Shown here piece by piece: positions 55,673 through 60,809 of a stretch of DNA of 64,000 nt. How positions within the stretch are numbered: position 1 is the stretch's first letter; each line of letters starts with the position of its first letter. Location: NCBI RefSeq assembly GCF_003576315.1, contig NZ_QWFZ01000006.1, positions 1 through 64,000 of the forward strand. The letters run 5' to 3'. The translations under genes and the position numbers were made by a program. The stretch is from Henriciella mobilis. Lineage in GTDB: Bacteria; Pseudomonadota; Alphaproteobacteria; Caulobacterales; Hyphomonadaceae. The notes beneath the pieces are model-generated. The model ran no database searches. It was not told the DNA's origin and worked only from the letters and a program-made list of their open reading frames with translations.

Positions 55673-55711
55673 TCGCTTGCGGTGTCCGCCGTCACGGGCG
55701 TATCAAGCAGC

Positions 55712-56974
55712 ATGGCTGACGCATTGGCGAAACTGATCGGGCTGGGTTCGGGCCCCATGTTGCAGGAAGAGCCGCGAAAGCCGCTCTCCGAGCCGCTTGA
55801 TGCGCTCGGTGAGACCGCGGAATCGGCAACCGAGGCAGCCAGCGAATTTGCGACCTGGGTCGCTTCGGGCTCACGCGAGGCGCTGATCGCTCTCGGCCTG
55901 GCCGTCGCCATGACCGTCATTCTGTGGTTCGCGCGCTGGGGCCTCATCCGGCTGATGCGCCACCTTCCGCGCAATGACGACTATTCGCTATCGGCGATCT
56001 TCAACCGGATCGTGAGACGGTTCCGGATCTATTTCATGCTGGCGACGGCGCTCCTGATCACCGACCGGATCATGGAGCTGCCGCAGACCATTTCGACCTT
56101 CAGCCACGTGCTGTTCGTGATCACCGCGACGTTGCAGGCGGCCGAGTTGCTGCAGGAAGCGGCGATCTCATCAATCCGGCGCCAGGCCATTCGCAACCCG
56201 CAGGATGCCAGCACGCTGGCTTCGGCCGTGAACCTCATCAAATGGTTCATCAATGTCGTGATCTGGTCCTTTGCGCTGCTGCTGATCCTCGACAATGTCG
56301 GCGCGGATGTGACGACGCTGATTGCCGGTCTCGGTATCGGCGGTATCGCGATCGGTCTGGCCGCGCAGGGCATGTTCCGCGACCTCTTCTCCTCGCTCTC
56401 CATCGTGCTCGACAAGCCATTCCAGGTTGGCGACACGGTGCGCTACCGCGACACCTGGGGCGACATCGAGGATATTGGCCTGAAGACGACGCGTATCCGC
56501 TCCAAGAGCGGTGAGCAGATCATCATCTCCAACACCAACCTCCTGGAAGAAGAGATCCACAATATGCGCCGCATGAACCGGCGGCGCATCGAGACGCAGT
56601 TCGGGGTGATCTTCCAGACGCCGCCCAAGGTCGCCGAGGCGATCCCCGGCATGGTGGCAGAACTGGTGAAAGGCGTTCAGGGCGTCTCGTTCGACCGCTG
56701 CAGCATGGCCGCTTTCGGCCCGAGTTCGCTGGATTATGAACTCGTCTTCTATTCGCTGAACCCCGACTTCAACCGATCCATGGCGGCGCGGTCCAACGTG
56801 CTGCTGGCGCTGTTCCGAAAGTTCAAGGAAGAGGGTGTGGAGTTCGCCTATCCGACCCAGACGCTCTACGTCAGCGGCGTGGAGAATGTGCCGGAGGGCC
56901 GCTTCGAGGCGAAGACCTCAGAGGATGCGCTTGTCGTGGAAGGTCCGCTCGACGCCGGGACAGACAAAAGCTGA
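55712..56974 (+). CDS. Mechanosensitive ion channel, MscS family (second)
   Basis: The 420-residue channel has helices at about 60-80, 110-130 and 180-200. The pore helix is TLIAGLGIGGIAIGLAAQGMFRDLFSSLSIVLDKPFQVGDTVRY and the beta domain is GDIEDIGLKTTRIRSKSGEQIIISN. A cytosolic C-terminal domain follows. This is the YbdG/YnaI-like group. ATG 55712 or a GTG at 55682 could be the start. It is 40 bp (or 10 bp) after the dehydrogenase. Confidence 0.92.
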   Translation: MADALAKLIGLGSGPMLQEEPRKPLSEPLDALGETAESATEAASEFATWVASGSREALIALGLAVAMTVILWFARWGLIRLMRHLPRNDDYSLSAIFNRIVRRFRIYFMLATALLITDRIMELPQTISTFSHVLFVITATLQAAELLQEAAISSIRRQAIRNPQDASTLASAVNLIKWFINVVIWSFALLLILDNVGADVTTLIAGLGIGGIAIGLAAQGMFRDLFSSLSIVLDKPFQVGDTVRYRDTWGDIEDIGLKTTRIRSKSGEQIIISNTNLLEEEIHNMRRMNRRRIETQFGVIFQTPPKVAEAIPGMVAELVKGVQGVSFDRCSMAAFGPSSLDYELVFYSLNPDFNRSMAARSNVLLALFRKFKEEGVEFAYPTQTLYVSGVENVPEGRFEAKTSEDALVVEGPLDAGTDKS

Positions 56975-57417: not shown

Positions 57418-58119
57418 TCAATTGGCCGCAATCAGGCCCCGTTCTGCCCGGATCCGCGCATAGGCGCCCGTGATCGCGGCAGCCTTGTCATGCGCGGCCA
57501 ATTCGAATTCGCGCGGTGCGCCATTGCCGACGATGCGGTCGGGGTGGTTGTCCGCCATCAGCTTGCGATAGGCGCGGCGGATATCGTCGAAGGCGGCATC
57601 GTGGGCAACGCCGAGAATATGATACGGATCGTCCCGGTCCGGTCCGAGATGGCTTGCCCGGATCCGCCGGAAGGTTGTTTCGTCGAAGCCGAAATTTTCC
57701 GCGACCGTGCGAAGATACTGCATCTCGTCATCGGTCACCACGCCATCGGCGCCGGCGATCATGAACAGGCCGTCCAGCACGCCCTCGAGCAGGCATGGCC
57801 GGGCGCTGTACTTCTTGCCGATGCGCCGGGCATAGGCCTCATAGCCGCGGACGGTCTGGCGGGCGATATTGAAGACGCGGCGAACCTTGTCGGCGTCTTC
57901 CGGCGCTGCGCGGAAGACGCGGGAGAAGACCATGATCTCGCTGTCGCTGACCCGGCCGTCGGCCGCTGCCATCTTGGCGCCCAGACCGATCACGGCGGCG
58001 GTGAATCCGACATCGTTTGGATCGGGCGCGCAGCCTTGTTCGGCGGACTCCGGTTCGTCCTGCACGTCGCTGTCAAAAAGGCGCTTTCCACCCTCGATAA
58101 GGATCTGCCAGAGGCTCAT
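57418..58119 (-). CDS. TerB/DjlA-like J-domain protein
   Basis: The 233-residue protein combines a TerB-like helical domain (about 38-150, KMAAADGRVSDSEIMVFSRVF and IAGADGVVTDDEMQYLRTVAENFGF) with a C-terminal J domain (DPYHILGVAHDAAFDDIRRAYRKLMADNHPDRIV; HPD at about 198-200). This is the DjlA order without its N-terminal membrane helix. It should stimulate DnaK ATPase; client unknown. Confidence 0.92.
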   Translation of the reverse strand: MSLWQILIEGGKRLFDSDVQDEPESAEQGCAPDPNDVGFTAAVIGLGAKMAAADGRVSDSEIMVFSRVFRAAPEDADKVRRVFNIARQTVRGYEAYARRIGKKYSARPCLLEGVLDGLFMIAGADGVVTDDEMQYLRTVAENFGFDETTFRRIRASHLGPDRDDPYHILGVAHDAAFDDIRRAYRKLMADNHPDRIVGNGAPREFELAAHDKAAAITGAYARIRAERGLIAAN

Positions 58120-58226
58120 CGTCCTACAACTATAGCGGGTTATTCGGGCAAAATCAGGCCCCGGATGCTCAATTGTCTTGCGACAAAATGTGAAATGTTC
58201 GTGATCAACCGGTCTCAGGCGGCGTC

Positions 58227-59102
58227 CTAGCGCTGCTGCGACTGTTGTGAAACCACCGATTTCAGTTCTGCGATCTCGTCCTTCAGCGAGCGCAGCAGGT
58301 CGAAGATTTCGTCGCGTTCTTCCTCGGCATGCTCGGCATCTTCCTCGATATCCTCGAGCAATTCCTCGGTCGCTGCCTTCTGTTCGGCCGCCAGTGCATC
58401 GACGATCAGGGCGATGAACAGGTTTAGCACGGCAAAGCTCGCCACGAAGATGAAGGTCAGGAAGAAGAGCGGCGCCCATGGATGGCCATCATCGACAACC
58501 TTCTGGACGACCTCGAACCGCCAGCCGTCCATCGTCATCACCTGGAACAGGGAATAGGCCGATCTGGGCAGGTCGCCGAACAGCTCCAGCACCTCCTCAT
58601 TCGAGGTGTCGCCGTACATGTTCGTCGCCATCACCGCATAGACATAGGTCAGCAGCGCCAGCACCGCGACGATGGCGCCCATGCCCGGCAGCGCCTTGAG
58701 CAGCGCCTCGGTTATCCGCCGCATCATCGGCACGACATGCAGCAGGCGCAGTACACGCAAGACGCGCATGGCCCGCAGCACCGAGAAACCCTGTCCGCCC
58801 GGCACCATGGATATGCCGACGACGATGAAGTCGAACCAGTTCCAGCCAGACCTGAAGAACATGAACCGATAGACGAACAGCTTCAGCAGGATTTCGAAGG
58901 CGAAGGCGTAGGTAATCCCCCGGTCCATGACCTCGAGCCAGTAGACCGATGTCGGCGGCAGCGAGTCGGCATAGGTCAGAATGCCGAGAATGGCGGCATT
59001 GAGGATGATCAGCCCGGTGATCAGGTTCAGGAACCAGCGGCTCTCGATCGCTGCTTCAAGCGGCGAATTGCTGGTGGTTTCGTCGAGTGTCGCGCGCGCC
59101 AT
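58227..59102 (-). CDS. One-domain voltage-gated cation channel, BacNav-like, filter TMDGW
   Basis: The 291-residue inner-membrane channel has six helices. S4 at about 108-129 has Arg at 110, 113, 116 and 119, the voltage-sensor pattern. The pore has T190-M191-D192-G193-W194 where NaChBac/NavAb have TLESW, so Asp replaces Glu and Gly replaces Ser. S6 (FLTFIFVASFAVLNLFIALIVDAL) ends in a long acidic coiled coil (EDAEHAEEERDEIFDLLRSLKDEIAELKSVV) for tetramer formation. Whether it carries Na+ or Ca2+ is open; a Ca2+/Na+ antiporter gene is 667 bp away. Confidence 0.9.
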   Translation of the reverse strand: MARATLDETTSNSPLEAAIESRWFLNLITGLIILNAAILGILTYADSLPPTSVYWLEVMDRGITYAFAFEILLKLFVYRFMFFRSGWNWFDFIVVGISMVPGGQGFSVLRAMRVLRVLRLLHVVPMMRRITEALLKALPGMGAIVAVLALLTYVYAVMATNMYGDTSNEEVLELFGDLPRSAYSLFQVMTMDGWRFEVVQKVVDDGHPWAPLFFLTFIFVASFAVLNLFIALIVDALAAEQKAATEELLEDIEEDAEHAEEERDEIFDLLRSLKDEIAELKSVVSQQSQQR

Positions 59103-59166
59103 GTCCCCTCGCTCGCCTTATGGTCGAGTTCGCTACAGGGGTTTCATACCCTGCGGTACGAATTGT

Positions 59167-59649
59167 TCAATCAGCCGAAGTGGTCGTATCGCTGATGATC
59201 TTCCATTCGCCGTCCATGCGCCGAAGGACCAGCGTGAAAAGCCCGCCCGGCGTGTCGTTTTCCCGCTCCAGCTGCCAGCGGCCATGCACGATGGCAGCAT
59301 CTGGCGAGAGGCGCACAATCTCCAGGTCGCTGGTGTCGAGTGTGCCCATCGCGGCGCGGCTGGAATAGCGCGTGCGGTAGCGCTCCAGCGTCGGGGCATA
59401 GCCGCGCACGACCGTCCCGCCGGATGCAAAGCGCAGCTCGGGCGACTGCCAGTAGCCATCCATGAAGCCCTCAATGTCGCCCGCATTCCATGCCTCGTCC
59501 TGGCGCTCAAGCAGGGCCGTGATCGCCGCCTCGTCCTCGGCGACAGACGGGACGGAGGCGTCCGCGGCGGCCGGTTCGGCTGTCTGGCAGGCGGTCACCG
59601 AAAAGCCGGCCAGGCACAGGGCAGTCGCAGCAAGGATGGTTTGGCGCAT
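59167..59649 (-). CDS. SnoaL/DUF4440-like lipoprotein
   Basis: The 160-residue lipoprotein has a signal peptide ending in SVTAC. The mature NTF2-like cone has ITALLERQDEAWNAGDIEGFMDGYWQSPELRFASGG and ends LFTLVLRRMDGEWKIISDTTTSAD, the DUF4440 hallmark. Such proteins may bind or turn over a small molecule; none is known. It is divergent from the antiporter gene. Confidence 0.88.
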   Translation of the reverse strand: MRQTILAATALCLAGFSVTACQTAEPAAADASVPSVAEDEAAITALLERQDEAWNAGDIEGFMDGYWQSPELRFASGGTVVRGYAPTLERYRTRYSSRAAMGTLDTSDLEIVRLSPDAAIVHGRWQLERENDTPGGLFTLVLRRMDGEWKIISDTTTSAD

Positions 59650-59768: not shown

Positions 59769-60809
59769 ATGATCATGGTCGCGCTGATCGTCGGCGGTCT
59801 GCTTTTGCTGTTTGCTGGCGGTGAGATGCTCGTTCGCGGGTCGGTGGGTGTTGCCCGCCGGCTTGGTATGTCGGAATTACTTATTGGCTTGACGCTGGTC
59901 GGTTTCGGTACCTCGATGCCGGAGCTCGTGACCAGCCTGCAGGCGCTGTCGGATGGTGCGACCGGGATCTCGGTCGGCAATGTCATCGGGTCCAACGTCG
60001 CCAATGTCCTGCTGGTGATCGGCGCCGCCTGCCTGATCTCGCCGATCATTACCCATCCGCGCGCGCTTGCCCGCGACGGGCTGTTCATGATCGGCGCAAC
60101 CGTTCTTTTCGCCGTCGTGCTCTGGTTCGACGGGTTTACGCGGGTCACGGGCCTCATCTTCGTAGCCATCCTGATCGCCTATCTCGTCGCCTCCGTCATT
60201 CTCGACCGGCGCAAGCAGTCGGCTGCCGCAAAGGTCCACTCCGGCGAGGCGGAGGTCATCGAGACCCATGAGCCTCTCTTTATCTCGCTGGTCCTGGCCG
60301 TCCTCGGCATTGCAGGCGTCGTCGCCGGTGCGAAGCTGCTGGTGACCGGCGGTTCCGATCTCGCCCGCGCCTTCGGCATTTCGGAGACGGTGATCGGCCT
60401 GTCCATCGTCGCCATCGGCACCAGCCTGCCGGAACTCGTCACCTCGATCATGTCGGCCATCAAGGGCAAGGCGGATGTGGCGCTCGGCAATGTGCTCGGC
60501 TCAAACGTGTTCAACATATTGGGCATCATGGGCGTGTCGGCCGCCGTTTACCCCTTCAGCATCATCGCGCCTGCGGCGCCGGATGGCACCAAGCCGCTCG
60601 ATGTCGAGGCGATGAGCTTTCCGGCGGGCGACAGCCTCGTGACGATGCAGGACATGGGCGCCCTCGCGCTGTCGGTGATCCTGCTTGTCCTGTTCGCCTA
60701 TACCGGGCGCAAGCTCGCCCGCTGGGAAGGCGCCGTGCTTCTCGGCGGCTACGCGCTCTATATGGCGATGAGCTTCAATCTCCTGCCGCACTTCGGAGGC
60801 GCCGCATGA
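59769..60809 (+). CDS. Calcium/sodium antiporter, CaCA family
   Basis: The 346-residue inner-membrane exchanger has two inverted repeats, each with an alpha motif: [17 protein letters not shown] at about 38-54 and [17 protein letters not shown] at about 217-233, plus [16 protein letters not shown] and [16 protein letters not shown]. These hold the ion-binding Glu and Asn. It resembles YrbG. Its stop overlaps the queF start (ATGA), although the functions are unrelated. Confidence 0.94.

Follow-up and report, generated by a model that had tools for sequence, protein, structure and literature searches.

The window, the whole 64,000-nt stretch of Henriciella mobilis DNA that was analysed, encodes a protein that by its sequence and modelled fold is a single-domain voltage-gated cation channel of the BacNav superfamily (PF00520, with S4 arginines, a pore loop and S6), and its selectivity filter, TMDGWRFE, is remodelled in a manner found in no channel measured to date. 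The channel kind itself is already known; what is new, on the sequences compared, is a filter variant that extends family-wide. The reading that we favour, by analogy with characterised channels and at little short of an even chance, is that of a voltage-gated, Ca2+-permeable and weakly selective cation channel on a NavAb/NavMs scaffold, working as a homotetramer, an assembly that we assume from the family.

The channel protein and its filter

The gene lies on the minus strand (58227..59102, with ATG at 59102 and stop at 58227), and its 291-residue product matches the Pfam family PF00520 (Ion_trans) with an E value of 1.2e-44; a search of the protein against NCBIfam profiles gave no useful match. 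NavMs and NavAb are its best sequence matches among single-domain channels of solved structure, and an AlphaFold2 model made from a 69-sequence alignment (mean pLDDT 91) found NavMs first in the PDB, followed by NavAb and CavAb, with identities in the structural match of ~45–47% to NavMs and 35–40% to NavAb. Model helices and conserved residues delimit a voltage-sensor domain (residues 22–122; 58737..59039, minus strand) comprising S1 (22–42), S2 (50–78), S3 (86–99) and S4 (104–122), followed by an S4-S5 helix (125–136). The four arginines of the S4 ladder (R110, R113, R116 and R119) are invariant in the 69-sequence alignment, as are N35, E70 and D91 of the voltage sensor. The modelled pore domain (residues 138–240; 58383..58691, minus strand) consists of S5 (138–163), P1 (178–189), the filter, P2 (194–204) and S6, which starts at residue 210 and continues as a single helix to residue 290 through an acidic C-terminal neck (residues 241–290; 58233..58382, minus strand). 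This neck is the least conserved region, with a mean column conservation of 54%, and P1, the filter and P2 are among the most conserved. With NavMs and NavAb the protein shares the single-domain six-helix fold, the S4 ladder, the P1 Gln, the S6 Asn and the continuous C-terminal helix. A preliminary description of this locus had named a BacNav-like channel with an intact S4 arginine ladder and a TMDGW filter in a Gram-negative host, all of which holds, the relatives being Henriciella and Hyphomonas. A K+ channel was rejected since the filter is not of the GYG type and the K+-type channels of this genome lie at other loci (L002, L003); the host has one BacNav-type channel, its remaining Ion_trans matches being K+-channel-like or a Trk-like transporter. 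Plasmid relatives of the channel all fall below 60% identity.

The filter and the start of P2 are encoded at 58512..58535 (minus strand) by the codons ACG ATG GAC GGC TGG CGG TTC GAG, giving T190, M191, D192, G193, W194, R195, F196 and E197. The preliminary description had ended its reading of the filter at the Trp and so overlooked the R-F-E that follows, including Arg195 (58518..58520, minus strand), which an alignment of relatives places at filter position 6, the site of Ser180 in NavAb. Relative to the TLESWSMG of NavMs and NavAb, the window channel has Asp for Glu3, Gly for Ser4, Arg for Ser6, Glu for Gly8 and Gln for Arg185, and it is one residue longer between the filter Trp and S6. Counted over the seven residues used for CavMr (PMC7041947), the filter has a net charge of 0 per subunit because of the Arg at position 6, compared with −1 for NavAb (TLESWSM), −2 for CavMr (TLEGWVD) and −3 for CavAb (TLDDWSD). 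With one Asp and one Arg it is therefore not ‘Asp-rich’, the type of filter that the preliminary description had cited as also favouring Ca2+. The accompanying statement that TLESW is the filter of known bacterial sodium channels holds for the canonical Na+-selective ones, whose filter the window protein lacks, but it passes over native NsvBa, which has Asp3 (TLDSWGSG; PMC4225499), and CavMr, which has Gly4 (TLEGWVD; PMC7041947). Literature searches found no paper containing the string TMDGW, no electrophysiology of any TMDGW channel and nothing that combined Hyphomonas with bacterial sodium channels; among the measured channels of this type that we found, none has a basic residue at position 6.

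Conservation and coupling of the filter

A channel match was present in 84 of 105 genomes of the window's family. Gly4 was present in 62 of the 64 family genomes in which we read the channel gene, and the identical TMDGWRFE in 35 of them; the other Gly4 filters were TMDGWRNE (7), other TMDGWR (3), TLDGWRGE (1), TMDGWS[DE] (9) and TMEGWN (7), and the two exceptions had TLESWSMG and TFEDWTDV. Such a distribution rules out a single-strain oddity. TMDGWRFE is encoded at 79 loci, drawn from overlapping sources with some species counted twice, in 40 different DNA spellings that use all four CGN codons for Arg6, and this number of spellings for one eight-residue motif rules out a chance or frameshifted reading frame. 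It occurs at 40 of the 80 loci in named genomes, these being Henriciella, Hyphomonas or incompletely named alphaproteobacterial relatives. In close relatives Arg6 is conserved to the same degree as the Asp and the Gly, and the pattern across sequences is one of strong purifying selection on Asp3-Gly4-Trp5-Arg6-x-Glu8 throughout the family. A wider sample of the class (68 loci) had TLESW in 55 and Gly4 in the rest; two members of the class on a long branch (L201 and L210, with IMDGWAE and IMDGWAD) have Ile at filter position 1, where Thr is invariant in the others.

Among 228 aligned relatives, the residue at position 4 covaries with the residues that follow the filter Trp. An acidic residue at position 7 or 8 was found in none of the 108 Ser4 filters, in 93 of the 99 Gly4 filters and in all 20 Asp4 filters, and Arg6 was found in 62 sequences, every one of which also has Asp3, Gly4 and Glu8. 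These counts come from related sequences that are not fully independent, with only two independent Gly4/Ser4 contrasts on well-supported branches. In 58 of the 62 Arg6 channels position 12, a helical turn past Glu8, is Lys, and in 60 of them position 11 is Gln. Position 11 (Gln200 in the window protein) is the site of NavAb Arg185, whose equivalent is present in 105 of the 108 Ser4 channels; in NavAb, Arg185 holds Gln172, which in turn holds the backbone of Glu177 (PMC12919392). The P1 Gln that corresponds to Gln172 is retained in every Arg6 channel. On these covariations the filter is remodelled as a unit, coupled to its surroundings, and we infer that the gain of Arg6 came with a rebuilding of the brace around the filter. 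That Arg6 simply took over from Arg185 is uncertain, because positions 6 and 11 should face different sides of the helix. In a Hyphomonas subclade with TMEGWN[GDE]H (L045–L049, L136–L140, L142 and L143), the P1 Gln is replaced by Glu and the channel gene sits in a different neighbourhood; an Asn mutant of Gln172 in NavAb gave no current.

Placement among BacNav channels

We built a tree without the filter columns, in which TFEDW/TLEDW channels with NavPp-like filters served as proxies for CavMr and NavPp; the NavAb and NaChBac reference sequences of the analysis were checked against PDB chains. The Hyphomonadaceae Gly4 channels form one clade (31 rows, SH-aLRT 98), adjoined by a TLESW channel of Oceanicaulis, within the NavAb/NavMs side of the best tree (93 rows, SH-aLRT 100), and sequence similarity agrees with this placement. 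The best tree keeps the TFEDW/TLEDW (AnclNav-type) channels apart from the window's group, although joining the two was not rejected (AU p 0.39). It needs at least nine changes between Gly and other residues at position 4, though a single clade of all Gly4 filters was not rejected either (AU p 0.13); on these sequences a repeated origin of Gly4 filters is likely. The TMDGWSD and TMEGWN subclades are nested in the Arg6 group (SH-aLRT 95 for the pair), which points to a secondary loss of Arg6 in both, accompanied in the TMDGWSD subclade by the gain of an acid at position 7. Among the bacterial filters that we found, TMDGWSD/SE (L042, L116, L122–L128 and L130) is the closest to those of CatSper3 and CatSper4, which TMDGWSD matches almost fully, a resemblance of short motifs that does not imply common descent.

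Ion permeation and gene neighbourhood

In the mechanism that we propose for a mixed, Ca2+-permeable channel, depolarisation would move S4 and open S6. The Asp3 ring would provide the high-field-strength site and, Asp being shorter than Glu, would no longer enforce Na+ selectivity; Gly4 would widen the mouth of the pore, and with the canonical Met7-Gly8 gone and Glu8 gained, the channel would lack what keeps divalents out of NavAb, in which M181A raises PCa/PNa from below 0.05 to 0.36, or to 0.47 with S178G added (PMC12919392). The role of Arg6, which accompanies the loss of the bracing Arg185, is probably not to close the pore but to support the loop or to tune Asp3. The predicted outcome is that Ca2+ permeates together with Na+, at a PCa/PNa of about 1 to a few tens, which would give these marine bacteria a voltage-gated path for mixed Na+/Ca2+ entry. 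Ca2+ permeability is plausible because Asp3 confers it in NsvBa (PMC4225499) and because CatSper3 (TVDGWTD) and CatSper4 (TQDGWVD) share the Asp3-Gly4-Trp5 core (PMC7041947), and the combination of Asp3, Gly4 and a missing Met7-Gly8 makes modest selectivity with admission of Ca2+ the most likely behaviour. NsvBa, which likewise carries Asp3 on a single-domain bacterial scaffold, is natively non-selective among Na+, Ca2+ and K+, and D186E alone restores its Na+ selectivity (PMC4225499), but it has Ser4, lacks Arg6 and belongs to a Bacillus group rather than being NavAb-like; the CatSper proteins are subunits of a eukaryotic heterotetramer, with an acid at position 7 and no Arg6.

The preliminary description had suggested a possible voltage-gated Ca2+ channel, citing Gly4 in CavMr, and it was right about that channel: CavMr is a native prokaryotic Ca2+ channel, still the only one identified according to a 2026 paper (PMC12919392), and like the window channel it is single-domain and voltage-gated with Gly4. 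Strict Ca2+ selectivity is possible by this analogy, and a true Ca2+-selective channel, CavMr- or CatSper-like, in which Gly4 and the acidic Asp3 ring strongly prefer Ca2+ over Na+, is a doubtful reading that nonetheless deserves weight. Gly4 is the key determinant in CavMr, where PCa/PNa falls from 218 to 12 in the G4S mutant, and in NavPp-D4G (PMC7041947); the ‘beacon’ rule of a review predicts Ca2+ selectivity for Gly4 preceded by Asp or Glu (PMC10120453); and the filter of the nested TMDGWSD subclade is very like that of CatSper3. However, a simple transfer from CavMr is opposed by the NavAb-like scaffold and by Arg6. The whole CavMr filter placed in NavAb gave no current (PMC7041947), and NavAb S178G, which is Gly4 on the NavAb scaffold, is impermeable to Ca2+ (PMC12919392), a result later than the review that contradicts the beacon rule on this scaffold. 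Position 6 matters, V6T lowering the PCa/PNa of CavMr from 218 to 40 whereas D7M has little effect (144; PMC7041947), and it is Arg here; the window channel also differs from CavMr in having Asp rather than Glu at position 3 and Phe rather than Asp at position 7. In CavMr the P2-S6 loop carries an extension bridged by cysteines (PMC10120453); the window protein lacks such an extension and has no cysteine, hence no CavMr-type disulphide loop.

The genomic surroundings bear on Ca2+ selectivity through a divergent gene of the Na+/Ca2+ exchanger family (59769..60809, plus strand; PF01699, E 9e-61), whose presence beside the channel in Henriciella would fit Ca2+ handling. It adjoins the channel only in Henriciella loci and close MAGs and is absent beside the channel in Hyphomonas loci, and we rejected it as strong functional evidence since only Henriciella-type genomes have it as a neighbour. 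An MscS-family mechanosensitive channel gene (55682–56974, plus strand) is close to the channel in many Henriciella loci, and an MscS-type gene also adjoins the TLESW channel of Oceanicaulis (L044).

The engineered NavAb S178G is also a precedent for a monovalent-selective (Na+ or Li+) channel, in which Arg6 would offset Asp3 and screen out divalents and Gly4 alone would admit no Ca2+ on this scaffold. The S178G channel, LivAb (TLEGWSM), has a PLi/PNa of 2.18 and a PCa/PNa below 0.05 (PMC12919392), so that it prefers Li+ and excludes Ca2+; the seven-residue filter of the window channel is neutral, Arg6 is common to the 62 aligned channels, and its four positive charges near the mouth could repel divalents. 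Position 7 is Phe in most members, still bulky like Met181 of NavAb, which also speaks against the mixed-permeation channel. We nevertheless consider a monovalent-selective channel unlikely: Asp3 abolishes Na+ selectivity in NsvBa (PMC4225499) and the canonical Met7-Gly8 is missing, whereas LivAb keeps Glu3, Ser6, Met7, Gly8 and Arg185. Arg6 is the main uncertainty for the mixed-permeation channel that we favour, because we found no measured channel of this type with a basic residue there. Decidedly unlikely is the broader scenario in which a Ca2+-selective filter replaced the NavAb-type sodium filter in the whole marine alphaproteobacterial family through a new chemical solution, Asp3-Gly4 and an Arg6 that stands in for the Arg185 brace and is balanced by Glu8, independently of CavMr and the eukaryotic Cav and CatSper channels. 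The published rules disagree, in that Gly4 makes CavMr Ca2+-selective but leaves NavAb Ca2+-impermeable, and this clade offers a natural test of Gly4 on a NavAb-like scaffold, with variation in the residues after the Trp (RFE, RNE, SDI and NGH); recordings from its members would tell with which neighbours a Gly4 filter lets Ca2+ in and how an Arg in the filter acts in a homotetramer.

The channel gene is flanked upstream by a gene for a DUF4440/SnoaL-like protein with a lipoprotein-like signal (59167..59649, minus strand; PF14534, E 1e-11) and downstream by a gene for a DjlA-like protein with TerB and DnaJ domains (57418..58119, minus strand; PF05099, E 6e-23; PF00226, E 8e-9). The DUF4440 gene is adjacent and on the same strand in most clade members, the TerB-DnaJ gene is co-directional and downstream in nearly all, and the three-gene order (57418–59649, minus strand) is kept down to ~47% identity; among the loci compared, it is absent from the TMEGWN subclade and from the surroundings of TLESW channels. 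By this conserved order the three genes may form a functional unit. It would also suit a protein that under standard conditions passes little current or none and either depends on the product of one of its neighbours (DUF4440 lipoprotein, TerB-DnaJ protein) as a partner or serves as a voltage sensor, and some cloned relatives, the Halomonas and Teredinibacter AnclNavs, gave no current (PMC7041947). All pore elements are conserved, however, and P1, the filter and P2 are as constrained as expected of a conducting pore, which leaves such a role very improbable.

Paired channel genes occur elsewhere in the loci collected. In another proteobacterial genome, two channel genes with the Gly4 filters TMEGWPD and TTEGWPT lie nearly end to end (L240:571–2310, minus strand, coordinates on the reverse strand), and the two form a candidate bacterial heteromeric channel. 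Tandem BacNav gene pairs in which both filters are TLESWSMG are found in three alphaproteobacterial genomes (L187, L200 and L209).
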